NCBI RefSeq assembly: GCF_963678975.1
Contig: NC_089277.1
Span: 25,184,672-25,248,671 of the forward strand
Source of the DNA: Dysidea avara
Lineage: Eukaryota; Porifera; Demospongiae; Dictyoceratida; Dysideidae
Reading direction: 5' to 3'
DNA: 64,000 bases
Part shown: positions 26,201 through 54,794 of the stretch, in pieces
How the letters are laid out: each line of letters starts with the position of its first letter
How positions within the stretch are numbered: position 1 is the stretch's first letter
Notes under the pieces: generated by a model
What the model saw: only the letters and a program-made list of their open reading frames with translations
Told to the model about the DNA's origin: nothing
Database searches by the model: none
Position numbers and translations under genes: made by a program

Positions 26201-29200
26201 GCATAACGCACATGTACTTTGAAAGTGACATTACTGTGTGTATGCTGCATACATGAGATGGTGCTAATGTTTCAAGTTAATAATTATGGTATAGCTTGCC
26301 ATTACATTAGATTATAATTATGTGTAATAATAGTGTAAGACAATTGTAATGTGTTCACTGCACACATACAACTATACTAAGAAGTATACTTGTCCTATTG
26401 ATAACTAGTGACAAAATCACTAGGCATTAAACTTGGTAAGGATCTGAAATTTCCATGGGCACACTACCGGCACAGTACATAATATAATTACATCACACAT
26501 ATTACATAATAAAAGTATAGTGTGCTCATCTATATGTGTCCTGTACATCCTGCCAGTGGTGTATCTAGGGGTGGGCCTAGTGACACATGTGCTTTACCAA
26601 ATAGTTCTGGTGCCCTACCAAAAGTGAGATTGAGATACTCTAATAGAGCAGTCAATCACTCTAATAAAGCAGTCACAGCATTCAGAGAAACAATGTAGCA
26701 ACCTATATACAATTATACATGTAGCTGCATGTAAATAAGGATTTAATAAATTTGGTGGAGAGAAGCCATTGTCAGCTGGTAGTTACCTTTGTTGCTCTTC
26801 AGTGCCCTACCAAGCCAGAGAGTCTAGATATGCCACTGCGTGTGCAAAGGTGTGCAAAAAGATTGGCTAAACGAAAAAAAGTTGACAGATTTTAACCACG
26901 ACTTGGCCTCACAGAACATCCACCAAGTTTTGGCCCAACACTATCATCTTCATGGAGGAACTGCTGCTATACCTCCTGGAAAAGTTTAAGAATTACTTAT
27001 TGTCTACCTTTTCTGTGGAAAACATTGGCTGGAAAATGTTCAAAACATCACTTACTGTAACCCCAGGATGTGGTATATTGGTGGAGCCCAGGCAAATGAA
27101 AGCATGTAGTGATTTGTAACAACAAACTTGGAGTTGCCAGATAATGTGTGCTTAATTTCACAAGAGTATCATGTTGATATGTGCTTTGGTTGCTGCGTTA
27201 GCAGCATCACAAATAATGGAATGCAGACAGGCAGTTTTTCAGCTTTCTATAATATAAACACTCATGCTACAACTTTCATGCTATGCCCCTCCCCCATATG
27301 TCAGCTCTAGGATCACCAGTTGATACCCAGATGGCAGTATGCACACTTGCACAAGTCTTAGAGTCTATTGGTTGTTAGTCTTTAAAAACTTGTACAAATC
27401 TTTTAATGTAGGTTATATAGTTATTTATTAATGCTTTACAGCACAAGTGCTGAAGGTCTGTAGGACACCTGGTCCTATAGCCTGTTTGAAGATGTTATGT
27501 AAGTATGTTTGAAAAGGTAGAGAAAGGAGAAAAAATTCATGACTGGACCTTGGCAGCCTCAAACCTGTAGCCATCTGATTAACACTTGAATGCTTTCAGG
27601 AGTCTGCCAGGTGGTTAGAATGTTTTCTCCTTGTCAATTTCATATATATATGTATCCATAGGAACTCTAGAGAGTGACTTATTATCTCAAAGTAATACAT
27701 GAAAAATATGCTAATATCGTAGCTACGTGTCAGACATTAGGTAAATATCTTAGCTACGTGCCAGATATTATTTGCGATGATCTTAGCTACAAAGCCGAGA
27801 ATATATATAGTGTCAGTTTCACACAATAGATGTACAGTATATCATTTACACATTTGCAGGATTATACAAGGCTCCAACCTGGGTACAGTGAAAGCCAGTC
27901 AAGAGATATACCAAAGGTATCAATGTAACATTTACATAATGTACATACGTCTTACTTCATTCATCGTAATAATTGTTATTTTAATGAGTAGCTAAGGCAG
28001 CTAATACTCTACTAACTATACAAGTATATCTTTGATGGTACTGTAAAGCACTTACTGTGCATAAAGCTGTGCTGTAAAAATATAATCTAGTATACCATAT
28101 TAACTAAAACACTACACATATCATGTTGTCAGTGTTGTTTCTGCAGTGGAATGTAACAGCAGTTGAGCTAGAGCTTACCTTACAAATGCTTTAGTATGAA
28201 CAATGAGTTTACATGCACACAACTAAAATCTGATCTGTTGTTATTCTATTTAATGTGTTGTCTAATTATCTTGAAAATGTGTATCATTAAGCACTGCCAA
28301 GAAAAGTTGTACTGCAACGTAATTATATGTATGTAATCAGTGTTCCTACCCCTAGGGTAAATTGTAATACTGTAACCTTGTTCCCATGGTCTACTTGTAT
28401 ATGTACCCTACGTATGTAGCTTCATGGCCTGGTGTATTGAAGCGTGTATGCATGTAGAACTAGGGAATTATAGGTAGGCAGCACAATGCCAGTATAATAG
28501 TCATGATGGGGCAGAGCTGATCTTAGTTTAAGCATAATTATATATTTTTTAAATTAATTAATTAATAGCAAAAGCTTGTGGTATTATTTAAATATTGATG
28601 ATATCTTGCATGGTAACAAAATCTGGATGATACAGTTATCCTAATGTACAATACTAAATGCACGTACACATGCACAGTATTATATACATGCATATGTAAA
28701 ACTCATCAAAAATCATCATCTTATTATAAATTCCTTACTGTATTCTATGCATTAGCTTCTGGTTTGCACAATTCAATTTTCTTCTCCTAATATTACATTG
28801 GTAAACAATGAAAAGGCAAGCTAGTCGTCGACATGGAACACCTTGTACTTTTCTCTATATGACCAAGTATCACAGGCCTTACAAACTCTTTATAAACTTC
28901 CATAGAGTGTGCATGTATCCTTCAGAAGCTTTGCTTTACAGAAGCTTGAGGCCAGCATTCCAGAGATATTCGACAAGTAAGACACAAAAGTATGCTTGAC
29001 TCCAAACTAACTATTTTGGAACTTACAATAATCATTAACAAGCATAGCATTTATACCACTTATAAACAATGATTAATGAATGATATTAATTATGAGAAGT
29101 GTCTAAGATGTGTAGAAGCTCATATGGTGTGGATAGTTGGCATTATGTTCTGTAGTCAACTATACATTAAAACATGGTACCTCTCCATAGTTGGTAACTT

Positions 29201-33841: not shown

Positions 33842-35985
33842 ATTTTTTCTATGCATACTCTCTGGTGGTAGGGATGGATTTAGCATCAGTATCCCAATTA
33901 CTGCATAATTCAGTCTGCCCTAACTGGTCTTAGACTACCTGTGCAAAACAGGATGAATTTGACTGCTATTTATTTGTTCGCATTCGTTTGAATCTACACT
34001 GAACAAATTGTGTGTATATACATATAATTATTACTCTTGCTGAAAACATACATGCGTTCACTACTGGCAAATAATATCTAATTAAAAACATAGTTAACTA
34101 ACATGTACCCTTTGTCTAAGTTGACTTTGATTAAAGTCTAGCTACATCCGTGCGTTAATGTGTACCATGAAATCAATATCAAATTAAGGTAGAAGTTTCT
34201 GCTATAAATTAGCATTGACGTTTTTAGATATCAAGGTGCATGTTAAAGCATTTCTATCATATAGTATTTTTTGATGAATTATTAATCGGCCCCATGTTTA
34301 TTTTGGTACAATATAATTATATGCAGCACTGAGAGGAACTAGCAAGTAAACATTCGACTTGCATTAGTTGATGTCATGTGGCAGACACTGCATGAGGGTA
34401 CATTTTGTAGCTAGTAGCGACCATCATGTGATACGTAACTATAAAAGTGTAGTTATAGTGTTGCCTGGTAGAAAACTGTAGCAAAGGTAGCTACCATTGA
34501 ATCTGAATAATTTACTCATCTGCAATAGTTAATTACAGTAATTATATACTAAATTACATAATTGGAATCTTATTTCTTTTGGTAGGCCTACTAAGCTAAG
34601 AAGACATCCAATACTATAATTGTACCAGCTGTTCTTGCAAGTAGATTCAGGTATCTGCACAAGGATTAATTACAGCCCCTAGGTGCTGAAATTTAGTAAA
34701 TTCCATTATTTTGCATATTAATGACATACGTACTGTTAATACTTAATGAATGCTACATTTTTAGCTACATATGTAGCAAGCATCTATCATAACAGAATAT
34801 TATAATATGGTATATCTATTGGCTGTGGAAACAGGGTGCCCACCAGCCATGCAGTGGAAATCTAGTTATAAGACAAGGTCAGAAGGTGAGTAGTACAGGA
34901 GGATAAACCTATATGACTACAACCTGAACAAACAGACAAAACAACACATAACATTGATGCATACATAAGGTACACAAAGAGGACATGATCATGACTTGAG
35001 TCACATGACACATTTAAATGTAGTCATAAGAGAAGTGGAAGTCATTATATTTAGGGTTTGGGGCATGTTTCCCCTTCTGATGTAAGCAGCCATGAAACAA
35101 TACTGTAGCCTTATTAATTAAACAGCAATATAAAAAATGACTGTTCTATCACAGTTGTCACAGCTCTATTAAATACATTGACCAATACGTAGATATTAAA
35201 AAGTAGGGGAGGGACATGCATGGAGCATGGTATAGATTACCCCCCTCCCTTGCCAAACCCAGGATCCGCCCCTACTTCTGATCTCGCGAGCCTAACCTTT
35301 TAATCGAGCCGGGTGCTTATTATACGCATAGTGCGCTTATTATCAAGTCCATATGAGGGGATTACCCGGTTCGATATTCCTAGAACTGATAGCACCGAGC
35401 CGAGGGGTCCGCAACGCAACCTGAATCTCGTACACCTTGAGCCTGAATCTTTGTGAATCTTTGAATCTTATCACGAGATTTTCCGGAGATTTTCGGGAAT
35501 TTCCCGGATATTGATCACGTGATCTACAAAAAAATTCGCGATCAGCTGGAGGTGTTACCTCGTGTCGTTTGAGGTGTCGTTGCACTGACTTGGCTCGCGC
35601 AAGAGCTCACCTTTGTCTGTTGCTAACACTGGTACGTTGTGATAGCTGGCAATAGCTCAGGTGTTGACTGTGTTGTACAATAGTTGGTTATTCGATCAGT
35701 GCTAGCTCGATGTCTGAAGCTGCAGTGGATTTGGCTCAGGACTTGGACAGATGCGAGGGCAGCTCGGAGCGAGGTGTGGAAGGCAGACTAAATGATGACA
35801 GGTACATAGAAAACAAACCACTTCGCGTAGACGCGTATGGAGGACAAAACTTTGCTGTTAAATCCACGTTTCATCAAGAGGTTTTGTCAAGCTAGGTGAA
35901 AAGCCTAATCCTTGAATAAAATCAACAGGCTTAATAGTGTTGAGACTAAATTGAGGACTGAATTGCATGCCATGTTGTGCTTTTT

Positions 35986-36654
35986 CAATAACACCTAGCT
36001 AACAGTCAAGGTTGAAGTGCCAATTTCCCTAATATTCATTCTTTGCAAGATACCCTGAAACAAGATTTACAGAAAATGACACCATGCAATGCCCACAGGA
36101 TTGACATCGTTGCAGATACTTTTGGTAAACCGTAATCATTGGGTAGTAGCATCGGCTAGTGGAAATGCTGATAGTGCTGATGTTATTCTATATGATTCTA
36201 AGTACTCTTTGCTCCATGAGCACACAAGATTACTGCTGTCGCAACTTGTGTTTACCAAGAACAAGTATTTTACCATTGGAATTGCTAATGTTAACAAACA
36301 ATCTGGAGACAATGATTGTGGACTGTTAGCAGCCGCTTATATTACCAGTATTGCCCATGGACAAGATCCATCATCAATTGTGTACAATCAAGGTTTGATG
36401 AGAGAACACTTATACTTACTTGCCTTGAGACTAAAAGAATGGCCCTATTTCCGACTATCAGGGAGAAAAGAGTGCTTCAATCAAAGATTGTGAAAACAGA
36501 AGTGTATTGTTACTGTAGGTCACCAAATGACAAGAAAAAGGAAATGGTGCGATGTGGCAAAATGACGTGTAAAGAATGGTTTCACTTTGAGTGCATAGGC
36601 ACTGATAACAATATTGTACCAGGACAAAAATGGTTTTGTAAAAACTATAAATGA
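35986..36654 (+). pseudogene. Ulp1-like cysteine protease plus PHD finger, frameshifted
   Basis: Three reading frames together read like one protein. 36020-36080: NFPNIHSLQDTLKQDLQ. 36089-36410: SLQILLVNRNHWVVAS...LYDSKYS...VNKQSGDNDCGLLAAAY, which is the C48 (Ulp1/SENP) core with catalytic His, Asp, Gln and Cys (H17, D36, Q71, C77 of the frame starting at 36089). 36420-36654: FPTIREKRVLQSK followed by a PHD-like finger YCYCRSP...MVRCG...EWFHFECI...WFCKNY, whose last Cys is replaced by Tyr. At least two frame changes (near 36090 and 36410) break it. Ulp1 enzymes cut SUMO-like proteins, but genes of this Ulp1-PHD type in invertebrates are often parts of DNA transposons (inference). An open frame at 35710-35895 (MSEAAVDLAQ...) may be its 5' end. 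Confidence 0.7.
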
Positions 36655-37465
36655 AAAGTGAAATCCTTACAGTTAATATGTTATGTTAGTGTACACATGG
36701 CATGATTACTTGTCATGCATGATCTTGATGTCGGTGTATAGATGCATATAGTGCATAGTTTTATTCTGAATCTCAGTCCAATTAGCCATCTCCATGGCAT
36801 GTACTAAAACTGGTGAGGTATATTTATATACATGATACATCTGCTACAAGAAATATTACACTTGTACATATATGTATAATACGAGCAGCTACAACTGCAA
36901 GTTGCCTAATGGCACTAGTGGCAGCCTATATATATATATAAGCTGGACATTCGGTAGTTAAATTTTGGTACCAGGAATCATCACACTGAGCCAGTATGAA
37001 GAGCTAGCTAGCTACTGAGTCCATGCTGCTTGATCAGTGTTGTCCAAGTTACGTAGCTACAATGCCAAATTTAAACTTATGATATTCACTAGCTGAAGAG
37101 AGAGAGAAACCATCATTATTATATGAGACACAAACATTTACACTAACATTAAGGAATCCTCAGTCACATGCGACCACCAGACAGGGTTGGTTAAAAACGC
37201 CTGGGTGGGCATGGCAAGGGAGTACAAAACATAAAGTAAGTATACATGCATGTACATTTAACTAACTAAAGAGTCAGTCTGGGGAGGCAGGAAACCACTC
37301 ACGACAATCCCTAGCCATAAATATTCTTTGAGATGCTGTAATGCACTTCGGCGAAGCAGAATCCAAAACTTCCCTTAGAGCTGCTTTTGACACTAATATA
37401 TCCTGGTGAACATATTTAGTCGCTAGAAAGCCGACCTCTGAGATTTGGCCGGGCTAAATTTGATT

Positions 37466-37690
37466 GAATCCTCGAATCTCGGGTGAATCTCACTGAATAT
37501 AAACTGAATCTCGGGTGAATCCCACTGAATCTCGAGTGAATCCCACTGAATCCCACTGAATCTCGAGTGAATCCCACTGAATCTCGAGTGAATCCCACTG
37601 AATCTTGGGTGAATCCCACCGAATCTGCATGAATCCCGGAGAATCTCGACTGAATCCCTCGGAATCCGGTGAATCCGTAAAGATTCTGAA
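37466..37690. repeat. About 21-bp tandem repeat (TGAATCTCGAGTGAATCCCA)
   Basis: Roughly ten imperfect units alternating TGAATCTCG(A/G)G and TGAATCCCAC. Open in several minus frames because the period is divisible by three (SRDSVGFTRDSVGF and DSLEIQWDSLEIQ), but each is a shadow of the repeat. It ends 70 bp before copy C exon 1 and so may sit in its promoter. Confidence 0.85.
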
Positions 37691-37761
37691 TCTCGTACGT
37701 GATTTTGCTGCGTTGCGGACCCCTCGCACCGAGCACCCATCACGTTCGTAATAGTATCATT

Positions 37762-40700
37762 ATGGGGAGTAAACGCTGTAGTCAAGATGAAAAGGATCGT
37801 CTTCTCCAGCCACTTTTAAGCAACACATCAGAGACAGACGTGAGTGACTACGGGTAAAGGCAAAGCCTGTATAACCGACCAATGCATCACATTATTATAC
37901 AAAAGTAAATCCTAAATCTAGTAAATAATTATCTAACAGCGATTTAAAAGTGTTGATTGAAGTACTTTCCATAACAGAGGTAGGTAAACTGTTACAATCA
38001 TTAATCGTTCTATTCATTTTTCGCTACACGTTAAACTGCTAGCCTAAAAAAAATACTTTATACCAGTCGGATTATCAATCCTTTTCCCTGCTTTCCCTCC
38101 TTATTTGTGAGGCATAGATTAGAGGGGCCGTAAAGCCTTATGGCCCTCTCAACAAGCCCAGTCTCATAATCTGAGCATAGATTGTAATCTATGATCTGAG
38201 TGATTCTGTCAGGACCGGGTGGGGTATATTGGCAAGTGGAATATAGTCTCCAAACTAATGTAGAGTTTTCTACAGGCACAGTAAGGATATTCACAGTCCA
38301 TTGCCCAGCCTGTTGAACTGAAAACACTCTATAATGTGTGCCATGCATTTTTTGGTGAGATTGATAGTGTTGTGTAGCCAGACCACACAAAAGTGAAAAA
38401 GTGGTCTGGCTATGCGAGACTAGGACAATTTTCAACAATTTTGTCTCAATTTCAGACTGTCATGAAAAGTTGAATTTTAAGCATGTGGACACAACAAGGA
38501 GCTAGCTATTACACTGGTGTATTTCGTACACACATTGGAAGGTTAAGTCTGACATAAGTGGAGCCCATGCATCCAATTATGCTAGTAGAAGATATACCTT
38601 TTTTCTGTGATGATAAGGTCCTGTGAATTATTACATGTGTAATAGTACTCATAATAAAAATCAAAAACTAATTAACAACCAGTGTTGGGAGTAACACGTT
38701 ACGTAATATTATTACTTTTGTGGTATCTAAGTAATATAACGAAATACGCTATAAAAACAGGTAATATAACTCAAGTTACTTTACTTACAAATGTAACGCG
38801 TTACCTAAGTAATATAATTACTGTAACGAATCTAATATTATGTAATATTATTATTACAAGTAACGAAGTTACTAATCTCGTTAGTAATCCACTGAGTAGC
38901 GCCAAGCCACAATGAAGTAATGAAGCCTACTGAATGAAGCTTATTCACCAGCTTCTTACTTATAACTAAGATTTGCACATTGTCCAACAACGTAATCATG
39001 TCACGTGATAAGGTGGTAGTTTCACATGTGACAGTTTAAGGCTGTGGACACAAAGTAATATAATATGTAATATTATTATAGTTACTTTATTTTATGGGTA
39101 ATATGTAACTGTAACTAAATAGTTCAGTTGCAAGTAATATGTAATATGTAACTAGTTACATTTTAAAAGTAACTTGCCCAACACTGTTAACAACATACAG
39201 AAATTATTTTTATGCTAATCAATATAATGTTCAATCAGAGGTCAAATAGTCTATGAATATACCTTGAGCCTTTTGCCATAAATTAACTATATACTCCAGT
39301 AATGGTTTAACTATACCACAACAAAGGTTTGCTGCAAACAAGTAATGGTAGTATATTTCTATAAACTATAGATGTTATCTGCTACATTGCTTTTCGTATG
39401 TATGTAGCTATGCATATTGCATAGCAAGAAGTATTGATGATCCAAAAGTTACATGCATATACACTGTGTACACGAGATACATGTATGTATGCTATGCACA
39501 TAAGGATCTGGGAAAACCGGTCTTTTTGCCCATGTCAGTAGATTTGATTTTTCATCAAGAACACAAAGCTACATTAATAAACTGTCTAATTTCAAAATCA
39601 GCTAGATTTGAGTAGTCTGCTTTTGCTGGCTGCTTTTGCCAAGGCCAGTGGCTATCCATACATGTGGTGTGACGCCTTAATGGAGCTCTGGTCAGCCTGG
39701 AGATGGCTGCATGTGGCTGTACAGCTCTGTGGCATTGAATAAAGACCTGTGATGTAAATTTCCTTTCATTTAGCCAGTTTTGAGACCTGAATGGCACATA
39801 ACTTGGCCTAATTCATCCCTACGCCTTCCTTCTCAATATTTTAAACAGCTCCTTCCAGGCCCCCGCCTCCCCTTTTGGAGCTTGCCTGATACAATCAGCC
39901 TCAGTTTAAAAACTATCTAAAATGGTGGCAGGAAACTTAGCTGTTGGCTACTTGCAAAATGGATGCTCTGGAAGGTAATGGAATTGGTGTAAAACGTGTG
40001 AACATTTGGTACACATAGCTTCAACCATTAGCAAGCTACAGCACTTTAAAACAGGCATTTCTTGATGCTTGTTAATAGAGCAATAAGACTGGTTTTCCCA
40101 GACTGGGACACATTCAAATCATTAAATAATCTGTCAGTCTCACAAGTTACTGCATTTGCAGCATTATACAGAGCTTAAACCTGGAGCCAGTGAAAGCCAG
40201 TCAAGAGATAAACCAAAGGTATCAACGTGACTGTGTAACATGTATATATGTACAAGTCATTTGTGGTCTCTGTAGTCTATTCATGCAATTAATAATTAGT
40301 ACTTAATTTTTATTTTTTCATAATTGTGTATCAAACGGTATGGTCGTACCGTTTAAGTAGGGATCGTGGTGAATGTTTCGTGTGCCGCCCAAAATTCCGT
40401 GTTTAAAAATCATCCTGCAGACATTTTACGCAGCGAAAATCGCTTTTACGGAATAGTACTAGTCCATATGATACATAAAACAGCATTAAATACAACAAAA
40501 CACTTACAGGTGGCCGGATATAAAATTTTAAAAAATTACCAAAAACCTTAATTTTAGCCTTACTGCCTTGCCTCACTCACTGCCTCACTCACTGCCTGAC
40601 CACAGTCGCAAGCCTAGAGCTCAAACGAAGTAATGTATGGTCACCATTTTACGCCACAACAACAACTCACCAGTGGGATGTGCTTTTTGGGGTTCCGACG

Positions 40701-43700
40701 AGTGTACGCCCTGTGCACCTTGAATTTCCTTTTATCTTCAATCAGGTTGGTCATCTTCTTCAAGCATCGAAACCATACCGAGGCATTAATTTTCCGTATC
40801 AGCACTTTTCTGTAGACACCACAAAATTATTTCAGAAAGTGCTTATGCTGCTGAAAGAGCGGGGCACTTATAATTTCAAGTATTGCACGTGAAACATTAG
40901 TTGTCACTTCGACTTTTGCCAAAGCCTGGACTGCCATCAACGAAGAGACTTCAGACGGACTGATACTTGACGGCTTGTTCCTCTGAACACACTGACTCAG
41001 CCACTCGGTGCCAGACAGCGAGATCAGTGAGTGATTCATGTGATTGGATAGTACTTTGTATTATACTTCATCCTATTAGTCGAGACTAAGTTCCAGACAA
41101 CTGAAAGGGCCTGTTCGTTCGAACAACTTTCGGCCGGGGTGAATAGAACATGGACTATCGCACTGAGAATGCAGGTCATAGATCTGAATGCCACTGCTAC
41201 TACGATCAAGCATAGTAAGCTATGCACGCTACTACGGGCCTATATGCTTCCAATTTTGGCACAGTACGTACTTTAATAAGCTGTAACTAGCTAGCTGTGC
41301 TACAACATAAAATTAAACAAACTATTATTTTTAAAAATTGTTAATTTAAAAATGAAGTAGGGATCTATGCAATAAAAAGTAGTGAAACAAGAGATGAATG
41401 ATGGTGTTACAGCATAACTCGATGGGAAAGTCCCTACTTTGTGGCACATTAGCTATAATTTTGCTCAATGCCAAAGTACGGACTTTCCCATCGAGCTATG
41501 CTGTAACACCATCATTCATCTCTTGTTTCACTACTTTTTATTGCATAGATCCCTACTTCATTTTTAAATTAACAATTTTAAAAAATACTAGTATATGCAT
41601 ATTCATGTGATAATATTTTATTACTTCTTGTGGTTTAGCGGAAGTGTTGGGTCACAGTCTGCTGGTGGGTGATATTTGTAATAGCATCACCACTGATTTT
41701 ATGTGAGGCAAACCAACTGTTATCTGGTCACATGGTTTATAAAATGGTTCACAATAGTCTGGCCAACATCAACAGTTGTACTGACATTCTTCATCATCTA
41801 CAAGTATTGCTGTAAACACAAACCACCTGATGATCACCCCCCTGAGGAGTAAGTTCAATGTACATGATTTGTGATCTCAGCAAAAACCCGACTAGTTCAC
41901 ACACACACTGAGAAAGACAAGTTTTTTAAAAAAGAATTTGTAGCATACTTCAAAGAAAAAAATATACAAGTTTTTATCTAGCCATTACTCAGAAAAGGTA
42001 GACTCAAATCGATTACAACTATACACCATTGTATTTTCCTGCTCATAAATAGTTTGAAAATCTTTGTTTCATTTTGTAGTCCCATTGGTATGTGTGTCAT
42101 GTGCATTTGTTTATGATGCGGTAAAAGTAAATAAGATCGTTACCATTTCTTCAACTAAACCACCTTCATACCTATATGTATAAGTGACTGCAGGGATTAC
42201 ACTATTTGTTGATGGATTTGCTAATCCATGGTGAACATTTTAAGCCAAATTCCAATGTTGTAAACTAATGGTAACGGAAGTTTTGGCTGCAAATGTAAGT
42301 GCCTGTAGTTTATTTTTAGTATGGTCACTGTACAAATCAATTGTCTGGCTCTTTCTGCTGTCCATAGCACTATAAAATTCCAAAACTACTAACCACAGAA
42401 TGATGAAACTTTGGAGATCCATTCCTTGGACACTGCAGAAAATGCAGAGAAATTTTTAAACAATTAGGAAGTTGTGCAAACAAGTCGGGTTTTTGCTGAG
42501 ATGGTCACATATGTAAGCATGATAATGTAGCAATACTGTCAATGACTTCAAAATATACATATGTGTAATACAGTACTTATCATTTGACTTCAAAGATATA
42601 TTAAAGTCTTATCAATGATACATGACTGGATCTGCAAAAAGGGGTCTTATAGCCTTTCCAATTGCATGTACTTGGCAATCCATAACTTGACTTGTGTGTA
42701 TAGTACCAGCCTGAAATTTGGTCATGACTCGTCAAACTTGGAAATTTGGAAAGGCTATAAGACCCCTATTCGCAGATCTGGTAATACACCTTGGTGTCAT
42801 TCACTGCTATACAGCACATAAGTTTGGATCAATTTGTGACTGGATTGGCATATTCACTGTTTTCTGGTAAACACAGCCAAACGAATGCTCATCTGAAGTT
42901 TTAGCCCCAGCAGCTAAGACCTTTCAGTGCTACATACAAGGTTACTAAGTGGCAACAATAGAAAGATTGATTTGGGTTCTACGTATCACATTTACATTGT
43001 GGGAATTATCACGTGTATTGCACTTGCCTTCTTTGATTCTAAAACAGCACACTTAAATCACAATTCAATCTTCATAGAACAATTATTAGTGTTTCTTGGC
43101 TTGTCACTCTTGGTTTCTTTTATTGGGCAAAGGGCTGGCATTGACAACCTGGGTGCCTCATTCCATAGCAGGAAGCTGTCCATCCATACATCACATGACA
43201 GCCATCTGGATGAGATTTTGAGTAAAAATCACTCTTACCCACTCATCAGGTCAAGGTACTGAGCAAACTCTCTCACTCCACATCGTGCAATTTTTGAATA
43301 GTGATTGATCTCATGATTTTCCACCAGTATAATTATTCCGTTCACTTCATCACATACTCTTCCAGATAAGCCAGTATGGTATACTGCAGATAAGCCAGTA
43401 TGGTATACTGCAGATAAGCCAGTATGGTATACTGCAGATAAGCCAGTATGTTATACTGCAGATAAGCCAGTATGGTATACTGCAGATAAGCCAGTATGGT
43501 ATACTGCAGATAAGCCAGTATGGTATACTGCAGATAAGCCAGTATGGTATACTGCAGATAAGCCAGTATGGTATACTGCAGATAAGCCAGTATGGTATAC
43601 TGCAGATAAGCCAGTATGGTATACTGCAGATAAGCCAGTATGGTATACTGCAGATAAGCCAGTATGGTATACTGCAGATAAGCCAGTATGGTGTACTACA

Positions 43701-46700
43701 TTTTTGTAGCTGTGTAGCCTATTTATTGTTAGTAGCTGTGTGAATTCACTGTATAGTTAGCTGCCTAATCGTAAATAATAAATATGCTATTCTTTAAGGG
43801 AACCACGTGGCGGGGCTCCCTGTGAAATTTGAATAATCTCGGGGAGTCATTGTTAGTTTTACTTGCTTTTAGCATCAATTTTAAGGCATTTTCAAGCCTT
43901 TAAAGTACAAAAATTCTGCAGCTTCTGGGGGTTGCACCCCAAGACTCCCTAGAACTTCTAATTACTAGCTAACTATGAAGCCATATAGCAAGTGTCTCCT
44001 GATATGTCAGGTGTGCTATTACTTACCTAGTATAGTATAGGAAGTCTGAAGAACAACAAAGTATAGGCTAGAGTATATTTATATGGCTACGTAGCTAGCA
44101 GTGAAATATCACTAAATCCGAGTATCTAATTTTCAAAAATTTCCTTGGAGTAAGGGGGCATGCCCTCAGACCCCCCTAGAATGCTCATACTTTGCACTTC
44201 GCAGAGTGTGCTTCACATACTGGAGCAACTCCTCTCTCGAGCAACACCTTGAATATAGTAGCAATTTCAACATATACAATGGCCTGACCAACTCACTTTT
44301 CCTTCCTCTGGCCCTGTCTTATACATCCCAGACGAAATTTGTTCAATTCAATCCCTGCACATGCAGCACACTTCAAGGTGTACTTATTCATCTCTCCCAC
44401 AGTAGGCATTACAGTCATTGTTCTATTTAAAGCATCTCACTATTCTATTAAATCATCTCAAATTTTCCCAGAAGGCACTAAGATTGTGTATAAGCTCACT
44501 ACAGTATATTGCATTACAATAATGATATTTGTAAATACATTCTGGTTTTAACGCACAACAGGTCACCATCCCAACCCTCAACACCTTCTGATGATGGTAA
44601 GCATTTAGGAAAAGAGGATGGTCCACCTGTAAAGGTAACTGTATCTGTGTATGATGTACCATGATAAACTTGTTCTGGTTATCAAGGTAATCTTGCTGCA
44701 CACATAAGGTACTATATATTTATTCTTTAGAAAATGAAAAATCTGGGAAACACATGTTACGTAAACTCAATGTTGCAGGTATGTATATGCATCAGTGTTC
44801 AATCAGGCTCAGCATTTACTGTAGCATATGAGACTGTATATTGAATATCATAAATTTATGGTGTCTTCTGGTCCTGTTTGACGGACGGTACATGAAACAT
44901 GTCATCTCATGATGAAAAATGACATAGAAAAGTGTAGGGCTTGAAATAACCATGTGAGGTGTTATACTATCGTATGTCACAAAGTAAACCTCATTGTTTG
45001 TACTATGAATCATAAATATTGTTATAATTGGTACCTGCTATGGCCAATCATTAAACGCTCAGTTGAGTGACACAGCAACCTTCTAAACACCATAAATTGG
45101 TCCATTTTGGGTGTGTGAGTTAATGTGTCCCTGTAGAACTTTCAGTTAACTGTTTAAAGGCACAGCAAGAAGTCTTGTCCTCAGATTCTAATACCACTAT
45201 GTAGCACTCAATTGAGGTACTGATCATGTATGCCAAGTATGAATGATGTCACAAGCCATACAGTGACAACACACAATAAGTGATGATCCAAAAGGTGTGT
45301 GGCTTACAGTCCCTTCCACTAATAGCTTTGTATATTGCCACATACATGAAAAGGTTTTAATACATAAGGTTGAAAGTGTTTACATACGTAGGTCCTTGAT
45401 AGTATTGCAAGTATTGACTGTTTTATTAGAGTGTTTTGTTGACTATTGAATGTTCTATTAGGGTATAGTAATAAATGGGTATTGTTTGTATCACCAATGT
45501 AAGTCAATGGTACAAAGCATTGTTGGTTGAGATGTTTAGAAACTGGTTCCTTATGTAACTGCTGTGAAAAAATACCAGTAAAAATATACAACCAAATAAA
45601 GTGAAAAAATAATACAACATTTATTAATTGGATTGTATGCTCTGTTAATGTTACAGAGTGTTAATCAAACTTCTGAGCTACATCTCATGTTCAGCAACTG
45701 GAGAATACAAACTTACATTATTACAATTCCCAATGTGGTGAGTACACGTAATTCTCTTTGTTTTTTTTGTTCAGGACATGGTGTTCAACATTTAGAATCA
45801 TGTAGATTAATTTCTGTATGTATATCCGACATTCAAGATACCGAATACTTATAAGTAATAAATATGTGGCCCACTGAGTGAAACCCTGACTTGTTTGTAT
45901 TTTCCTCGAATTCCATTTTATGACTTTTTTGTTGTCTAGAAGATAAAACCAATGGGCTGTTAAACTTTCAGCTTTATCTGGTAAGTGTGATAGACAACAA
46001 GAAGAGCAAAACAATTGATTTGTACAGTGCCTATACGGGAAAAACTACAGGCACTTGTTTAATTGATCATAAGGCTTGAGTGCAACAGGCTATAGGGTTG
46101 GGAGTTAAGGCATTCTGTTCACCATGAACTGGGGCATTCATCAGGGTATAGTTTTGGCCTAAATACACCCACGCTATTAAGCAAAAAGGTTGTTCAAACT
46201 TAGAACCGGTGACGGTAAAGTAACGTTTTACCACAATGTAACCAAACACACATATCTTCATGGTGCAGAAATGAAAACAAAGATATTCTTACTCTCCATG
46301 AATGGGCGAATTCATTGGTAGAATATTAGATATTTCAATTTGAGTCTTCACTGATTACTGAAGTAAATGAATCATGTGTAAAATTATTTATACAGCACGC
46401 ATCTTTTACTCAATGTATTTCAGTGGAATTGATCTCAAAAACAGAATTATACAAACAAGTCGGGTTTTCGCTCAGCGGGTCACATATACGTAACTTGTTC
46501 TGCACATTGTGTTGCTAGCTAGAGGTGTACTGATAATCGGATTGGCTAAAATATCGGCCATCGATATGGTAATTTTTACCAATATCGGTATCGGGTGCAG
46601 GACAGCAGGAGGACCGATATCGCTACCGATTTTTATACAGTAGCAATAGTCTGTACATAAACGGATTATTTCTACATTATCCATGTGGCTCTTTAGTGCC

Positions 46701-49700
46701 AGTGGCCTATTGTTCACTCTGAAACAAGGGCTATGCTACGAGAAACCATATAAATACACGTGATTCTAGTGTTTGTTACTGGAAAGCTTATCGCAGTCTT
46801 TACAAATGAAGCAGTTATAGAGTACCTTGTAATAAAAAGAAGGGTCACAGATAACCAAGGAAATTTGCTGTACCAGCTTCTCACAAGCCATTGTAATGCA
46901 GAAATATCCGTTTAAAGCTTCATGGGAGTATACATAAAAATGTTTGTGGGTGCCTAATTGTCTGGATTGCACAATAGAAACCCAAGCTGGATATCACCAC
47001 AGGCAGAGTACACCAATGAATACATGCACATGTTGTTGTAGGGTAGGTAAATGTACACTTTTAACTATAATGCAAATATCGGATCAACTATCTGTTATCG
47101 GCTTCTTTTGGTGGCATCAATATCGGATATCGGGACATGCAAAAAACCCATATCGGTACACCTCTATTGCTAGCTACACACAATATACTCTACATGCCAT
47201 AGAAGCTATAGGATATTATCAAGGTCAATCTTGTTTATGTGTACCCACACATGCTTTGAGGTTTTGTAAGGACATTTATACACCTGTCTGTAGGGTTATC
47301 CATGTTGGCAAATACAACCATTAGCCAAGCCTTATGACCTAAAACAGCATATATCTTTTATAAGTATGTATCAATATGTATACGGCCATACTATCAAGAT
47401 TTTTATTGCACACATTTCTATCTAAAACAGTTGCCCTACATTTTAATACATGTATCTACTACTTACCTACTATAGGAAACAGTGGAAGTGGTAGTGTCAG
47501 ATACATTTGGACCATTAACACAAGAATTGTTTGAATTTTTTGGTCAAATCCACTTGGAGAACCATCCAGTGGTTGCTGCATATGGAATAGTGAGAGAACT
47601 GAGAAAGAGGTAAAAACACTTGGCTATGACAGTGACACACTATATGGTTATGTTTAACAAAAATATATATCACAAGGCTGACGTATATGGGCTGGCCGTG
47701 TTCTGGCTTGGGCCAGACCACTTCTTGGATACACACTATCACTCACGATACTCTAGACATCATCTCTGAACTTGTTCTTTACCTGACCAAAGTTTCCATT
47801 GGTCCTGCATCTAGGCAGTAGGCAGCCACCCATTATAAGTATTTACATCAGTGAATGCTCTATTAAAGTATTTCACTTCAAATAGTGACTGATCTATTAG
47901 AGCTAAGGAGCTATGTACAATGCATTTGAGTGCTTTATTGCAGTTTGCATTTTCTACCAATTTTTCTTTAGAGAGTATCAATCTATTTTCAAGTAATTAA
48001 GCTCCATGGTTTGAAATATCTACCTAATATGCTAGCGTTATGCTGGCATAGCACTATAGCCTATTATGCTTTCTATTATGCTTTCTATTATGCTGGCATA
48101 TTTGATACAGGTCTAGCTCCTTGGAGTAATTGCACTGCACTACCATATGTATCATCATTCACTTTCATGATCAATAGCAGTAGTAATGATCTCTGTGTAT
48201 ATTAGAAATCCACGGTTTGGACGAGGAACAGAAGAAGATAGTCATGAAGCATTGAGGTGTCTATTGGATGGCCTAAAAATGGAAGAAATTGATGTAAGTA
48301 TTTTTATGTACAATACAGACCCTGCTCTTATGGTTTATCTGCAGCCTGAAATTGAAGTGATCATTTAATTATTTAGATTGTAATTGTATTTTCTATTGGA
48401 GTAGTTGTATCACCATTAATTATCATACAGTATGATAGTAGGGACCACAAAGGAGTAGGCGTGGCCCACAAAATAACATTACCCAAAACCAGTCGTAATT
48501 TTCCCTGACGATGATGAGGCAATATTGGTTAGGTAAAACTATGCCCAAACAAGCTTTCAGATCAACTCGAAATGCTTTAGTTATTACGGAATTTTTAAAA
48601 TAATTTATTTAATGGAATTTTCTACTGACTACCTGACTGACTGACTGACTGACTGATGTCTTCAGACAAGCGTAACTTGATAACGGCTAAGGCTACGGAC
48701 TTGATTTTTTCACTGTTTGACGTCGCTTCGGCCTGACAGGTGCCTTTTGGCATACCGCAGTACGTACAATGCATTCTTCATGGACTTACCTAGGTCTTTC
48801 AAAGCTGTAAAATGCTATAGCATATCATCATAGCAGCAAGGCACTCATAGATTTGTGGCTTACCCATCTTACTTGGATTGGATTGTGTATCTCGAGTACC
48901 TGAATCGCTTCAATTTTTAGTGATCGAACCAACATTAAATGTTATGATAAAAAACTAACAGGCATCACTTGCCATTGTGCTGGAACCCATGCAAGATTTT
49001 AACATCACAAACAGGGCTTGTTGAAAGTGGAAAGAAAGACAACACACATCTGTCATAGAATAAACTGGTAGGGTGATCAATCGTACTGTCTGAGTGTTGT
49101 TGTTTTCATAACATTCCTTATACAGTATAGCTGTACTGTAGGTTCCCAAATGTATTGTATCAGTCTTCTACATTACCGTATTGTATGGGCAAATGCAGTA
49201 CAGTTATGTGGATAATTGGCCATACAGTATCTGTATGGAAAATACAGTACACATCGACACTTGACCCCTTCCATGCTAATAAGTACAATATATGGTTGTA
49301 CACACTTTTCATATCAAGCTTTCAAAAATGATATAATATTATGTACAATGTGCTACCTTTCTTGTCATAGGAAGCCACAAATTTGTGTGTGGTTACTGAA
49401 TGACTTTGTAAGATTATCGCGGGCTTAACAGCTACCACCTTAACATTTTTTCTGTGCTTAGCACCCCTTTTCACAAGTAGCACAGTCATTATTAACTTTC
49501 TGACTTTACCAGTCTCATTTGTAGTAAGATTTTATATTTACTCTATGCGGCCGTGTGCATGAAAACCATGTACTGTAAGAAGGCTTGTGATCACATACTG
49601 CACTCTACCTGAGGTGGGGACTATCCACTATTTGTAACTTGTGTAATATAGTACAAAGACAGTTTTTATAGGGTTGAAAGTTAAGTCTTCATGAAGCTAC

Positions 49701-52700
49701 AGTATCTCTTTATGAGATATAAAAATACAGCTGCTATAAAATGTGGCCATCTCAGCAAAGCCCCAACTTGTTCACACAAGCATGCATTTTGAGAAAACGG
49801 CATTAAAAAAAACTTTGTAAAAATTACGCATGCTACAAAGAGAAAAAATACAAGTTTTTATCGGACCATTACTCAGAGAAGGAAGACTAAAATAAATTAA
49901 AACTATACACCATCTTATTCGCCTGCTCATGGGGAGCTCTTTGTTTTGGTTCTGTAGCCCCAACGGTATGCGTGTCACATGTGTTTGTTTATGATGCAGT
50001 AAACAAGATTGCCATCCTTTCTTCAACTAAACCACCTTCATACTCATGTATGTAAGTGACTACAGGGCTAACTAATACAATACCTTGGTTTATTTGCTAA
50101 TCTATGGTGAACATATTAAACCAAATTCCAATGTTGTAGACTGAGACTAACGCAAACGGAAGTTATGGCTGCGAATGTAAGAGCCTGTAGTTAATTTAGT
50201 CGCTGTACAAATCGATTTTCTTGTTCTTCCTACTTGTCTAGCATTAGTTATGATTACAAAACTATGCTCCACAATGGACTAACAACTTTGGTGATCCATC
50301 CCTTGGATGCTGCTACTTAGATAATGCTGAGAAGTTTAAAAAAAATGATAGTTGTGCAAGCAAGTCAGGTTTTTGCTGAGACGGTCACAAATACAATTTG
50401 TATTATTTTTTACCCTTCACAGAAAATTAAAAAATTCTTTTGTGTTAAGTATGGAGTCACTAAAGATCCTGATTCTCAGAAGCATCTTGATGGAGAAGAG
50501 AAGTTGATGTTAAAACGTTAGAAGACATCATTAATTTCGTATTCAACAACATGCATCTACAATATAATTTCATAACTAGTAGCCTGTACAATTCCTTGTC
50601 TTTTTACCGTTACCTTGTGACCACAGAATATTTACGTCTGGCTGCCAAACAGAAAACTCCTATTGAAACCATAGTTGGCGGGGTACAAGTTAGCACTACA
50701 ATCTGCCGAGAATGCTTCACAGTAAGTCCTACTATCTTTATGAAATTATGTAGAGCAAGGCATACTGTACTTAAGCTGTGTAATCTTTTTGTAGGCTATT
50801 CAAAATGAAGAAAAATTTTTTGACATCTCTCTCTCTTTGCCAGCAATTAAGGTATGATATTTACTACAAATTGATAAGATCTGTTACAGTAATAAATCTA
50901 TGCATATCTTGTACAGACCAAAAGTTAATTTGTAATTGTACTACCTATAGCCACACACAGTTACTGAGTATGCAATCTATTCACTGTCCAAAAGTGGAAC
51001 ACACAATCATGGCAATGATAGTCTTATTGCTCATCCTTCCAACCAGTCAAGTATCCCATCTGTTCCAGACAGATCGGCAGATATCAGCATTATTGTACAT
51101 GTAGATTCAGAAGTTCCAGTTGGCAGTTATCACTCTCAAGAAGATGAACAACAGTTTGGAGATGATACTGGTGTACACTATGATACTGCTGAAGACGATT
51201 TTCCTTCTGCATGTAATTCTCCAGTTAATGTTGAAGTAATGGATGATGCCGAAACACACTCCAGCTCAAAAGAACACAGTACTACCAGTGTTATTACAAA
51301 TGATGAAGGAAATAAATCAAACAAAACTGTTTGTGATGACCAAAGGTATCCTGACAAAGAGAATAGTTTGGATGGTGATGGAAAGCAATTGACTGTTGCA
51401 TGCATTAATCATCCACATAATATAGACAAGTCTGATATACATGCACCTACTATGAATGATCAAGACGTAGATCAGGACAAGGAATTCATTGTCACCACAT
51501 CAGTTAAGGATCCAATGAATGGTGATCAAGATGTTTTGCCATCAAATAAACAAGATCAATATGCAAACTCTTATCTCACTATTGCGCAACACACTGAAGA
51601 CCCCAAAGAAGATTCTGGCACGTACCTTGATGCCAGGCAATATCAAGATGAAAAATTAGATCATGACATCAAACTCATTCAAGCAGATGTTGATTCCAAA
51701 TTTGGTAATAGTCATGCTGAGTTTAATCCAGACACAGGTCACACAGAATTTGAAGTTGCTGTTAACAAGGCAAAACTGAATAAGTATCTAGAACATAAAT
51801 GTATGCATTTTCAGCCAAAATCTGAAATAGAAAATGAGTCACTACAATTAACAGGCTTGGAATCATCTCTACAAGATTTTACTGATTTGGACATTTTAAG
51901 TGATGACAACAAATTTATTTGCAATACTTGTACTGAAAATTGTAAGTGCCACAACAACTTAATGATAAATAATAATGCAAAACATGAACACACTACACAA
52001 TATTGCTGCATTTCATATTGTAATGGTTTTATTTTTGCTGTTTCTTGGCTGATTGTGTACACTTTGCTAAAGTGAGATTGAGATACTCTAATGGAGCAAC
52101 CACTTACTCTAATATACAGCAGTCAGGAAATGCTGTTGAGTTCGAAAACATAATTTTTAGCATATAGTATACTAGGCCTGGCACTGCTCAAAGCATAATA
52201 GGCTATTTTCAAAGAATAGTTGGCTCACATCTAATAATACTGTCTGTGCGTGTATATGCAAATGACACATATCACTGCTCATATCGTCTTGTAGGCACTA
52301 AGACTCAGTCAGACACAGAAGCACTTTGTTTGGTCAGTAAACAGATTACAATTCATCATCTACCACAAATATTGATCCTACATGTGAAGAGGTTTACTAT
52401 TGAATCAGATGGAGTGTTCAAAGATGGTCGACATATCTCATTTCCCTACAAACTGAATATGTCTCCATACTGCACCAGTGAATGCCTAAAGGTACATAAT
52501 AATTATTCCAACATATAGATAGCTATGTTGTAATAGCTACTGCCATTCATATCTCTTGTTTCACTATTATTTTTTATCATTGGAACCTACTTCATTTTTA
52601 AGTTAATAGGTTTTAATTCTACTATAGTCAGTACACTTGAGCCCCCCCCAAAAAATATAGTAATAGCAAAGAGGTGAACATAAGTCCACTCCCAATGCTT

Positions 52701-54794
52701 TTATACTGGAACAAGCATGTTTTCATGTTGTAAACATGTTTGAACACCTGAATGGTCTATACTAAATGTATGGGATTTTTTAAAGCCTCATAACTCACTT
52801 GTTCTTGCCCGTATCAAAGCGCTTTTTTGATAAACAGTTCCAGCTTTTAAAGAGGGATTCACAGTGCTACTAAATGTTTGGGGAGTGGAGTTCTCCATAT
52901 TCTGTGGTAATGGGCACGCTTTGCTGTAGTTTGGGGTTCTCCTTGCTACGCTGTTCAATAATGTGTATTGGGGGATCGCGTTCTAGATCCAAGTGTCCCT
53001 ATGTGCCACTTTGCTGTTTCTGAAGGGCATCTGTCTCCTTTAGAATAATAATGTAATCATTTTATATTGTGCTTGCTTCTTTTTCTTATAAAAATAGCTA
53101 TGTCTACAATGTAACTTGTGACTGTTCTATCATACATGACTGATGTATTAGAGTGACTGTTGTATTAGAGTATATCTCGAGTTAGCTGAGGGGCGTGCAG
53201 CTAGCTAAATCAATAAGTGATCCTGTTTATTGCTATGTAAATAGCTAGAGGTGGGGTCTCTACTCTTTTGCCTAGATCTTTATTTGGTGAGCGTGGTCGC
53301 AAACCTATCGCGAACCAAATCCAAATTGTGAAGTTGCAGATATCCATCAAGTGTACCTCTTATAGTAGTGCCAGGACTGAAATGCTTCTGAAATCCAGCT
53401 CTGAAATAATTTTGTGGCATCTAAACTTGCTGCTGAAAAAGTGTTGATACAGCAAATTAACGCCTTGATAATGGTTTCATTGGATGAAGAAGACAAGCAG
53501 CCTGATTGAAGATTAAAGAAAAGACAAGGCACAGAGGGCCTATACTCGTTGGAACCCCAAAAGGCACATCCCACTGGTGAGTTAGTTATCGTGGCATAAA
53601 ATGGTGGCCGTGCACTGCTTCATTTGGCCTCTAGCCTTGCAACTGTGGTCAGTGAGGTAGGCAGTGAGGCAGTCAGTGAGACTAACATTTGAGTTTTGGT
53701 GATATTTAAAAAAAAAAATTCTATATCTGGTGCACCATCTGTAAGTACTTTGTTATATTTATGCTGTATTACATATTATATGGACTAGTACTATATATTC
53801 CGTAAACGTGATTTCTGTTGTGTAATATGTCTCTAGGATGATTTTTGAAGGTAGAATTTTGGTTGCACATGAAATTTTTGAGGGATCCCTACTTAAATGG
53901 TACTACCGTACCATTTGATTCTAAAGAGAGAAAAGCAGGAATTCTGTTAATATGTATCAATAATTATTACTGTAATAATATTGTTTTACCAAATTTTAAC
54001 GATTGTTTTATTTGTATATCACAATTTATGATAATACTGATTTACCACCCAACCCTAACCTCCTTGCTAACAAACTTGAATGGCACATTTCTCACACATT
54101 GTGTAGTCATTACTGGTGGGTACAAACTAGAAAATTTGCTCGATCCTTGCTTGTCAAAATGCATGTCAAAGACAAGATCAAAATACTCTAATAGAACAGT
54201 CAGCAATCTGACTGTTCTATTAGAGTATATTGGTATTTTTCTGGGATATGCTGATAAGCAAGAATTTATAGCATTGCACAAGTGTTCTGCCTATTGTGCT
54301 AGCATTGTGTTCGCACCTATTATGCTCACTGTTATGCCAGCATAATCGGTGGCTCTTAGTACAAACATATGCACTTGTCAAATAACGAAACAAATATTTG
54401 TTCATTATCACTATGAAATTCTATAACAACATACAAAAAAATTATTTATTTTAACGTATGTATGTACATATTAATTTTACTTTTGTTAAAGAATATGGCT
54501 GATGACAACAATGAGATCTGGTATGGACTCTATGCTGTAGTGGTTCATGACGGAGACACCCTGAAACATGGCCACTACTTTGCTTATGTGAGAAGCCGAT
54601 CTTTGAAAGAACCAACTAACTTGGTCCCAGAAACAAGTTGGGTGTATGATCAGAGTGCTGCGGAAGGTGGGGTCTGGTATTACACTAGTGACTTAACAGT
54701 GAATGTGTGCAAAGAAGGCTTTGAGGAAGTCAGCAGACAAGAAGCTTACATGCTGTTTTATGAGCTATTGCCTAAAACAATTGTAGCAGTGTAA
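37762..54794 (+). CDS. Copy C: full-length membrane-anchored USP16/45-like deubiquitinase
   Basis: Fourteen exons: 37762-37839, 40162-40218, 41639-41848, 44562-44634, 44731-44778, 45657-45737, 47476-47609, 48206-48293, 50423-50516, 50627-50721, 50795-50851, 50951-51941, 52295-52491, 54492-54794. Phases agree throughout except in exon 3, which needs one base less. The product is about 834 aa. Order: MGSKRCSQD (possible N-myristoylation); HYTELKP linker; two membrane helices (WVTVCWWVIFVIASPLI; then in the shifted frame TVVLTFFIIYKYCCKHKP); Cys box KNLGNTCYVNSMLQ; EEDSHEALRCLLDGL; VGG...TTICRECF; acidic region; FICNTCT; ILHVKRFTIE; SPYCT; and His box VVVHDGD..KHGHYFAYVR, ending MLFYELLP. Box order and wording point to USP16/45, but no ZnF-UBP domain is seen; a membrane hairpin takes its place. 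Likely role: deubiquitination at a membrane. Confidence 0.85.
38680..39186. mobile_element. hAT-like MITE in copy C intron 1
   Basis: 507 bp, ends CAGTGTTGGGAGTAAC and GTAACTTGCCCAACACTG, with an exact 8-bp target duplication TTAACAAC on each side (38672-38679 and 39187-39194). The interior consists of variants of GTAACG(C)GTTAC and TAATATTATTAC. The CAGTGTTGGG..GTAAC end is common to hAT-derived elements in many animals. Confidence 0.88.
40336..41035 (+). repeat. About 600-700-bp dispersed repeat, forward copy
   Basis: Starts with the palindromic AACGGTATGGTCGTACCGTT then TAAGTAGGGATC. Aligns by eye with the reverse complement of about 53340-53925 over about 600 bp (shared CACCAGTGGGATGTGC, TTTTGGGGTTCC, ACAAAATTATTTCAGA). 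Contains a CTCACTGCCTCACTCACTGC run. Small open frames inside (40633, 40680) are not conserved in frame between the copies. Confidence 0.75.
41331..41581. mobile_element. Foldback MITE with about 110-bp arms
   Basis: The left arm (41331-41441, including GATGAATGATGGTGTTACAG) and right arm (41472-41581, CTGTAACACCATCATTCATC) are near-perfect reverse complements around a 30-bp centre. Located 57 bp upstream of the copy C membrane exon. A partial relative, one arm only, lies at 52542-52612. Confidence 0.88.
41870..42511. mobile_element. MITE family R4, copy 1
   Basis: About 640 bp with ends TGTGATCTCAGCAAAAACCC and GGGTTTTTGCTGAGATGGTC plus ACAT. Aligns with 49741-50392 (shared CCTTCATAC, ATTCCAATGTTGTA, CTGTAGTTTATTT). 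Sits in copy C intron 3. Non-coding. Confidence 0.8.
42623..42783. mobile_element. Hairpin MITE, 161 bp
   Basis: TGACTGGATCTGCAAAAAGG plus GGTCTTATAGCCTTTCCAA is mirrored by TTTGGAAAGGCTATAAGACC plus CCTATTCGCAGATCTGGT. Non-coding, within copy C intron 3. Confidence 0.8.
43364..43699. repeat. Tandem array, 14 units of 24 bp
   Basis: Unit AGATAAGCCAGTATGGTATA plus CTGC, head to tail with almost no variation (one unit has GTTATA; the last has GTGTACTAC). No spacers, so not CRISPR. Read in one + frame it would give an eight-residue repeat (DKPVWYTA), and five of the six frames are open, but there is no start codon or splice context. Lies in copy C intron 3. Confidence 0.95.
46010..46492. repeat. 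Partial R1/R4-type MITE
   Basis: Contains GATTTGTACAGTGCCTATAC and ACTACAGGCACTTG, and ends CAAGTCGGGTTTTCGCTCAG plus CGGGTCACATAT, like the right end of R4. Its left end is unclear. Copy C intron between exons 6 and 7. Confidence 0.6.
46520..47166. mobile_element. hAT-like element in copy C, 8-bp target duplication
   Basis: 647 bp, ends TAGAGGTGTACTGATAATCG and CATATCGGTACACCTCTA, flanked by exact 8-bp duplications TTGCTAGC (46512-46519 and 47167-47174). The interior has repeated ATATCGG words and no transposase. A non-autonomous hAT derivative. Confidence 0.88.
48500..48830. repeat. Dispersed repeat related to 1140-1450
   Basis: Contains (GACT)n from CTGACTACCTGACTGACTGA and the shared block GGACTTGATTTTTTCACTGTT...GACGTCGCTTCGGCC...GCATACCGCA. 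Copy C intron between the DSHE exon and the next. Non-coding. Confidence 0.5.
49741..50392. mobile_element. MITE family R4, copy 2
   Basis: 652 bp, ends TGTGGCCATCTCAGCAAAGC and CAGGTTTTTGCTGAGACGGT plus CACA. Partner of 41870-42511. Ends 30 bp before the copy C exon at 50423, so it contributes most of the preceding intron's 3' end. Confidence 0.8.
53340..53925 (-). repeat. About 600-700-bp dispersed repeat, inverted copy
   Basis: Reverse-complement relative of 40336-41035, ending at 53925 with GATCCCTACTTAAATGGTAC and a palindromic TACTACCGTACCATTTGA. Diverged perhaps 20-25 per cent by eye. Lies in the last intron of copy C. Confidence 0.75.
54181..54231. repeat. Perfect hairpin of the ACTCTAATAGAACAGTCA motif
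   Basis: AATACTCTAATAGAACAGTC AGCAATCT GACTGTTCTATTAGAGTAT: two copies of the dispersed motif in inverted orientation. Last intron of copy C. Confidence 0.85.

Follow-up and report, generated by a model that had tools for sequence, protein, structure and literature searches.

A predicted membrane-tethered USP16/45-like deubiquitinase gene in the sponge Dysidea avara

The window analyzed here, a stretch of 64,000 nucleotides from the sponge Dysidea avara, contains gene C at positions 37762-54794 of the plus strand. The full gene model comprises 15 coding exons, rather than the 14 proposed in an earlier sequence-only reading of the same DNA, and encodes 816 residues. All 14 introns conform to GT...AG, with sizes from 55 to 2713 nt. 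The open reading frame of exon 1 (37762-37839; MGSKRCSQDEKDRLLQPLLSNTSETD) starts with MGSKRC at 37762, as had been read before, is followed by the donor GTGAGT at 37840, and matches the database protein P0001. It also encodes EKDRLL, which we take to be an acidic dileucine-like string. Exon 2 (40162-40218; HYTELKPGASESQSRDKPK) was adopted from P0001 and is paralogous to exon 2 of a neighboring locus, B. Translation and P0001 both gave exon 3a (41639-41702), encoding a first hydrophobic arm, and exon 3b (41758-41848), encoding a second one, FWPTSTVVLTFFIIYKYCCKHKPPDDHPPE; a GT-AG stretch of 55 nt (41703-41757) separates the two. Exon 4 (44562-44634) encodes a linker, is phase-compatible, and is present in P0001. 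The intron after the hairpin exon (exons 3a and 3b) harbors a 24-bp unit repeated 14 times in tandem at 43363-43697, with 99% matches.

The complete set of USP catalytic boxes that had been read from the sequence was found in order on the exons from 44731 to 54794. Exon 5 (44731-44778) encodes the catalytic Cys box KMKNLGNTCYVNSMLQ (box given as KNLGNTCYVNSMLQ). Exons 6 (45657-45737) and 7 (47476-47609) lead to exon 8 (48206-48293), which encodes the EEDSHEALRCLLDG box. Exon 9 (50423-50516) is followed by exon 10 (50627-50721), with the first CxxC of the fingers, and by exon 11 (50795-50851). An insert of ~300 amino acids within the USP domain and then the second fingers CxxC are encoded by exon 12 (50951-51941), and LILHVKRF and LNMSPYCTSEC by exon 13 (52295-52491). 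Exon 14 (54492-54794), which is absent from P0001, carries the His box HGHYFAYVR, the third triad residue, a serine in WYYTSD, and the stop codon. We also weighed an additional exon at 45940-45980 but left it out, because it disrupted the reading frame and because P0001 joins exon 6 directly to exon 7.

P0001 is a protein of 744 amino acids annotated as "USP16-like isoform X2 [Dysidea avara]", and its cluster consists of three member sequences. From MGS onward, 716 of 719 residues were identical between P0001 and the spliced model of gene C, and the hydrophobic anchor lies within this match. The two differ in the last three residues (DDF) and in 25 residues that P0001 has ahead of MGS. Thus, the public annotation unites the N-terminal exons with most of the catalytic exons. 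The 55-nt splice in the hairpin exon had been proposed before the comparison with P0001 was made. P0001 stops short of the His box exon, and its end fits an alternative last coding exon at 53837-53848 (D-D-F-stop). Because this ending drops the triad His and Ser, the P0001 isoform may be inactive. Another splice route, from an exon 1 donor at 37854 to an acceptor before 41708, gave an open frame with one TM segment and was rejected, as P0001 uses a different route. The model submitted to the UCH and ZnF-UBP profile search and to the protein search carried this alternative N-terminal splicing; its catalytic part was unchanged.

Three related loci within 52 kb had been noted earlier. Their relatedness was evident from our analysis, but only gene C proved to be complete. 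Locus A (3144-11531) comprises the catalytic exons at the 3' end of a second gene, the 5' part of which was not found in the window. Counterparts of exons 9-14 of gene C lie on the plus strand at 3144-3237, 3813-3907, 6866-6922, 8664-9999, 10696-10898, and 11235-11531, respectively; the counterpart of exon 12 contains DDQDD-type coding repeats, and that of exon 14 encodes the His box, WLYASD, and a stop. Between the catalytic exons of A and C, dN/dS was 0.29 (82 codons) and 0.21 (163 codons), which points to purifying selection acting on them. The in-domain insert of locus A (8857-9668) contains a 303-bp tandem duplication, the copies being 92% alike in an ungapped comparison and giving 97% matches in a second one.

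Locus B (17278-29499) consists of three N-terminal exons of a third gene, again on the plus strand: exon 1 (17278-17343; MGSGCCKGENEVPLLHSTSETE), exon 2 (27860-27916; DYTRLQPGYSESQSRDIPK), and a hairpin exon (29300-29499) that encodes two hydrophobic segments with basic flanks in one frame and ends ..ACC TA, directly followed by GTAAGT. These three exons are common to B and C, with the same order and phase. A search with 12 query peptides found no catalytic exons between B and C (best tblastn E value, 0.54). Locus B alone could encode a two-helix membrane protein of 107 residues ending at its last splice site, and both its reading frame and its splice signals are intact. Constraint on its open frame is not proven, because simulated neutral drift left the frame stop-free in 3-29% of runs at 0.4-0.1 changes per site. 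On the minus strand, intron 1 of B contains a young LTR element of the Ty3/gypsy type (17459-21999), with 209-nt LTRs that are 100% identical, a 5-nt target repeat, AGTAC, and a gag-pol open reading frame of 1362 codons.

In both loci, B and C, MGS is encoded by ATG GGG AGT in a start context of A at -3 and G at +4. In the window, the ATG of this MGS in gene C is the first in-frame ATG downstream of a stop, with no ATG between; locus B has an additional in-frame ATG upstream of MGS. The N-terminal extension of P0001 (25 residues) mapped to 35353-35400, and none of the 12 possible junctions from the extension to 37724-37735 conformed to GT-AG. Extension and MGS are parted by ~2.3 kb (35401-37726) with perfect inverted ends of 18 nt and a flanking 8-nt repeat, CACCGAGC. 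To judge from these features, this stretch is likely an inserted DNA element that is apparently absent from the assembly or allele behind P0001. The element adjoins the MGS start and holds an open reading frame (36080-36493) with weak likeness to Ulp1/C48 peptidases, at a Pfam E value of 0.007, which is below the cut-off. A match to GSI.LELI upstream in locus B was attributed to chance, since blastn gave no significant match and the matching codons all differed at the third position. The beginnings MGSKRC and MGSGCC presumably resemble those of proteins that undergo N-myristoylation plus palmitoylation. Acylation of Gly2, which the earlier reading had proposed, is a possibility that holds only if MGS is the true start.

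The exon of gene C at 41639-41848 encodes helix 1 (RKCWVTVCWWVIFVIASPLIL) and helix 2 (...TSTVVLTFFIIYKYCCKHKP) in different frames and meets a stop if it is translated without splicing. Excision of the 55 nt (GTGAGG...AATAG) restores the frame and yields the LILFWPTS of P0001. The counterpart in locus B encodes both of its hydrophobic segments (KD 2.09 and 1.96) in a single open frame. Because the 55 nt of gene C align with coding DNA of locus B, either a piece of exon would have turned into an intron in C, or an intron would have turned into coding sequence in B. The pair 41703-41757 and 29300-29499 is therefore a candidate for intron birth from, or intron loss into, coding sequence between paralogs.

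After splicing, gene C encodes one compact hydrophobic stretch of ~33 residues, with a best 19-residue Kyte-Doolittle value of 2.21 at residues 49-67. For a pair of complete TM spans, this is a short hairpin. Of the two hydrophobic helices that the sequence-only reading had assigned to exon 3, the hydrophobicity stands, but the arms are split between frames and amount to this single stretch rather than to two full helices; two full-length segments are found in the exon of locus B. The predicted structure of P0001 has helices at residues 75-90 and 95-111 with low confidence (10-residue block means, 44-64). In the model of the paralog P0002, helices at 21-32 and 37-49 surround FPPY, and pLDDT is below 50 in 18 of 29 residues by the listed segments. 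The flanks of the hairpin, picked by eye, carry net charges of +3/+3 in C and +4/+5 in B. According to the positive-inside rule, basic flanks face the cytosol. Because both flanks are basic, both ends of the hairpin would be cytosolic.

The predicted hairpin of gene C depends on the 55-nt excision, whose one backing here is the predicted database protein P0001. If instead the frame break in exon 3 were a real mutation, the hairpin would be decaying: gene C would give rise mostly to a short non-catalytic protein or use another start, and the working enzyme would be effectively soluble. The stop in unspliced exon 3 fits this explanation, as does the weak constraint on exons 1-3 between B and C (dN/dS 0.68, 87 codons); for the second arm in the frame of B, the value was 0.34 (34 codons). 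However, the frame is restored precisely when the 55 nt are excised at their GT-AG borders, and the resulting junction is present in P0001. Gene C has other short introns, of 73, 96, 99, and 110 nt, and hydrophobicity as well as basic flanks are maintained in both B and C. We consider decay of the hairpin unlikely and favor a spliced, anchor-encoding exon.

A further explanation is that two genes are involved, a small two-helix membrane protein, such as B alone would encode with 107 codons, standing beside a separate USP gene. It draws on the three N-terminal exons of B, downstream of which no catalytic exons were detected, and on the TAG stop that arises at the junction when B is spliced to exon 4 of C. 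P0001, on the other hand, covers the N-terminal as well as the catalytic part, the phases in gene C are compatible across the junctions, and three other proteins, P0121, P0122, and P0007, each combine TM and USP sequence in a single chain. A division into two genes is thus quite improbable, and the single gene C remains the preferred model.

The UCH domain was recognized in the model of gene C with an E value of 1.3e-42 at residues 104-787 (numbering of the model with the alternative N-terminal splicing), and Foldseek and VIA matched the paralog P0002 to USPs. When the catalytic part of C, with the insert cut out, was compared by sequence with the PDB, human USP16 was the best match (159.9 bits), followed by USP2 (77.8 bits); USP30 reached 44.6 bits. 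ZnF-UBP (PF02148) was not found at E≤1 in the C model with the alternative N-terminal splicing, and it was not found at E≤10 in P0001-P0004, P0007, P0025, P0121, P0122, and P0239, of which P0004 and P0007 are partial. Precomputed domain lists contain ZnF-UBP for the relatives P0005, P0123, and P0138. Nor is the finger universal among the other proteins of the trees described below: none is listed for P0006 and P0126, which group with animal USP16/45.

Serine as the third triad residue is attributed to three USPs, USP16, USP45, and USP30, in passages of PMC10047310 and PMC10867860. Triad Ser was present in 23 of the 33 tree rows, including all seven sponge rows, all five oyster-type rows, and both USP30 rows; nine rows, of other USPs, have Asn or Asp in this position, and one row is truncated. 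The insert of ~300 residues in gene C lies between ISLSLPAIK and LESSLQDFT, at the position of the USP16 insert, given as residues 393-627 in a passage of PMC10047310. In the predicted structure of P0001, the insert (347-576) has a pLDDT below 50. The same source describes two additions to the thumb of USP16, an extra beta-hairpin and a long helix-turn-helix. Both are predicted in P0002 (E140-144/E152-156 and H202-228 on) and in P0001 (E180-186/E190-196 and H246-272 on), as read from secondary structure without superposition. A PYCT/PFCT string and the catalytic-domain insert are common to C and USP16. By the best structure-library match, the tree, the Cys-His-Ser triad, and the domain insert, the catalytic domain of gene C is assigned to the USP16/45-like branch. 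The sequence-only reading had proposed a catalytic domain of the USP16/45 group with a hydrophobic N-terminal segment in place of ZnF-UBP, and the PDB match to USP16, the tree placement, and the failure to detect PF02148 agree with it.

Trees were calculated for 32 catalytic domains and, with zebrafish USP30 added, for 33. USP30 is represented by two vertebrate sequences only, and the rows of sponge A, P0004, and the nematode are partial. Sponge, oyster-type, and USP16/45-like rows fell, 22 in number, on one side of a branch with 98/95 (32-row tree) and 95/99 (33-row tree), and a clade of sponge rows with USP19 was rejected (AU p 1.4e-5, 32 rows). The comparison with USP16, USP45, USP30, and USP19 that the earlier reading had suggested thus places the sponge rows on the USP16/45-like side. 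Sponge and oyster-type rows together formed a clade with 97/97 (32 rows) and 99/97 (33 rows), a grouping that may partly reflect long-branch attraction because the oyster branch is over 2 long. The seven sponge rows alone had 92/86 and 90/86 in the 32- and 33-row trees; when oysters and USP30 were omitted, they had 100/100, and a branch with 92/98 placed them together with the USP16/45-like rows. Two alternative branchings within the USP16/45-like side were not rejected (AU p 0.327 and 0.34, 32 rows), the latter value bearing on whether the anchored clade is sister to animal USP16/45.

USP30 lay outside the sponge, oyster, and USP16/45 rows at 95/99 in the tree found, with a branch 2.2 long. 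The placements of the oyster rows and of USP30 are unsure because both branches are longer than 2. USP30 with the oyster rows (AU p 0.276) and USP30 with the whole anchored set (0.271) were not rejected with 33 rows. That gene C is simply the sponge USP30 and no relative of USP16/45 is very improbable: the order of an N-terminal anchor and a Cys-His-Ser USP domain and the lack of a ZnF are alike, a sponge plus USP30 clade was not rejected (AU p 0.081, 32 rows; 0.143, 33 rows), and a clade of all Cys-His-Ser rows including USP30 scored 0.30 log units above the freely found tree (p 0.525, 33 rows), but the similarity to USP30 is far lower than that to USP16, the PYCT/PFCT string and the insert are shared with USP16, and in the tree found USP30 lies beyond the 95/99 branch. 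Somewhat doubtful, and offered tentatively, is a wider scenario in which the sponge and oyster proteins would form an ancient animal Cys-His-Ser branch beside USP16/45, with ZnF-UBP replaced by fast-changing anchors and USP30 possibly as its long-branched vertebrate survivor. On that view, enzymes known to act on histones and ribosomes would have a membrane-bound side that has been overlooked.

Seven catalytic domains of this type were found in D. avara, those of C, A, P0002, P0003, P0004, P0121, and P0122, in line with the lineage-specific expansion suggested earlier. The five database proteins share the domain and have no detected finger; P0004 is N-terminally truncated. Two clear TM segments are present in each of P0121 and P0122, which differ so little that they may be either alleles or close duplicates. 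N-terminal hydropathy is weaker in P0002 (1.41) and P0003 (1.12), the latter not above background. Because of these weaker values, and because A and P0004 are without a known N terminus, not every paralog is clearly anchored. P0007 (274 residues) combines a TM segment with the Cys half of a USP domain. Oyster "USP16-like" proteins (P0025, P0075, P0239, and P0245) have a strong N-terminal TM segment (KD 2.28 to 3.58), so the trait extends beyond sponges. A KD of at least 1.6 ahead of the Cys box was seen in four of six sponge-type proteins (P0007 included), nine of 11 oyster-type proteins, and three of 228 others, with 24 of 269 proteins unscored. The Fisher value of 9.5e-16 is descriptive only, because the rows are non-independent and were gathered with anchor-containing queries. 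Since the anchors vary among paralogs and phyla, the conserved trait would be a membrane segment ahead of the enzyme and not one anchor sequence. Collectively, the relatives suggest that sponges and oysters possess a family of membrane-tethered deubiquitinases not described before. The distinct membrane-tethered branch of the USP16/45 group that had been postulated is partly supported by the sponge/oyster clade, but it is not confined to sponges, and it may or may not be the sister group of animal USP16/45 (p 0.34).

It is our view that gene C probably encodes a membrane-tethered Cys-His-Ser deubiquitinase with an N-terminal hairpin and a cytosolic USP domain, acting on substrates at or near the membrane. 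The hydrophobic hairpin would insert in the membrane with both ends in the cytosol, and the USP domain would face the cytosol. The enzyme would then remove ubiquitin from substrates at or near this membrane by the Cys-His-Ser mechanism of USP16/45 and USP30. Membrane insertion, the hairpin topology, catalysis, and a role on substrates at membranes are all inferred. As stated in a passage of PMC10047310, the ZnF-UBP of USP16 binds the C terminus of free ubiquitin and tunes activity. Because the anchor stands in place of this ubiquitin-tail-binding domain, location, and not the sensing of free ubiquitin, would set the targets of C, and the enzyme should lose control by free ubiquitin. An endosomal or plasma-membrane site is a guess from the dileucine-like string and the possible myristoyl/palmitoyl N terminus. 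USP16/45 chemistry kept while the ubiquitin-sensing finger is swapped for an anchor would show a nuclear/cytosolic enzyme re-aimed by location, and an anchored family would offer a testable origin for USP30.

Among the matches listed, no description of anchored USP16/45-like enzymes was found in the open-access literature. Gene C resembles USP16 and USP45 in its best catalytic match, Cys-His-Ser triad, place of the insert, and modelled thumb beta-hairpin and helix-turn-helix. Unlike these enzymes, which combine ZnF-UBP and USP, it has a hydrophobic segment in the place of the finger and no detected ZnF-UBP. Yeast Ubp1 likewise has an N-terminal membrane segment. The membrane USPs named in the reviews consulted are few, namely USP30 (PMC8927814, PMC4755399) and USP19 (PMC4755399). 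The earlier statement that known membrane USPs are arranged otherwise does not apply to USP30, in which, by a passage of PMC8927814, an N-terminal TM segment (36-56) lies directly before a USP domain with a Cys-His-Ser triad. Gene C shares with this enzyme the (in C, predicted) membrane segment just N-terminal of the USP domain, the triad, and the lack of a ZnF-UBP. It differs from USP30, a mitochondrial outer membrane protein with a single TM segment and its N terminus in the intermembrane space, in its inferred hairpin, and the similarity is much lower. USP19, an ER protein, resembles the predicted product of gene C in that its USP domain is membrane-bound (PMC4755399); its anchor, however, is C-terminal, it has CS and MYND domains (P0149) and Asp in the triad place, and a joint clade was rejected. 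A likeness in architecture is also offered by the "USP16-like" proteins of the oysters Saccostrea, Crassostrea, and Ostrea, which share with the sponge proteins the N-terminal TM segment, UCH, and triad Ser, with ZnF-UBP absent in the two that were scanned, and which differ from gene C in that their TM segment, close to the N terminus, is a single one.
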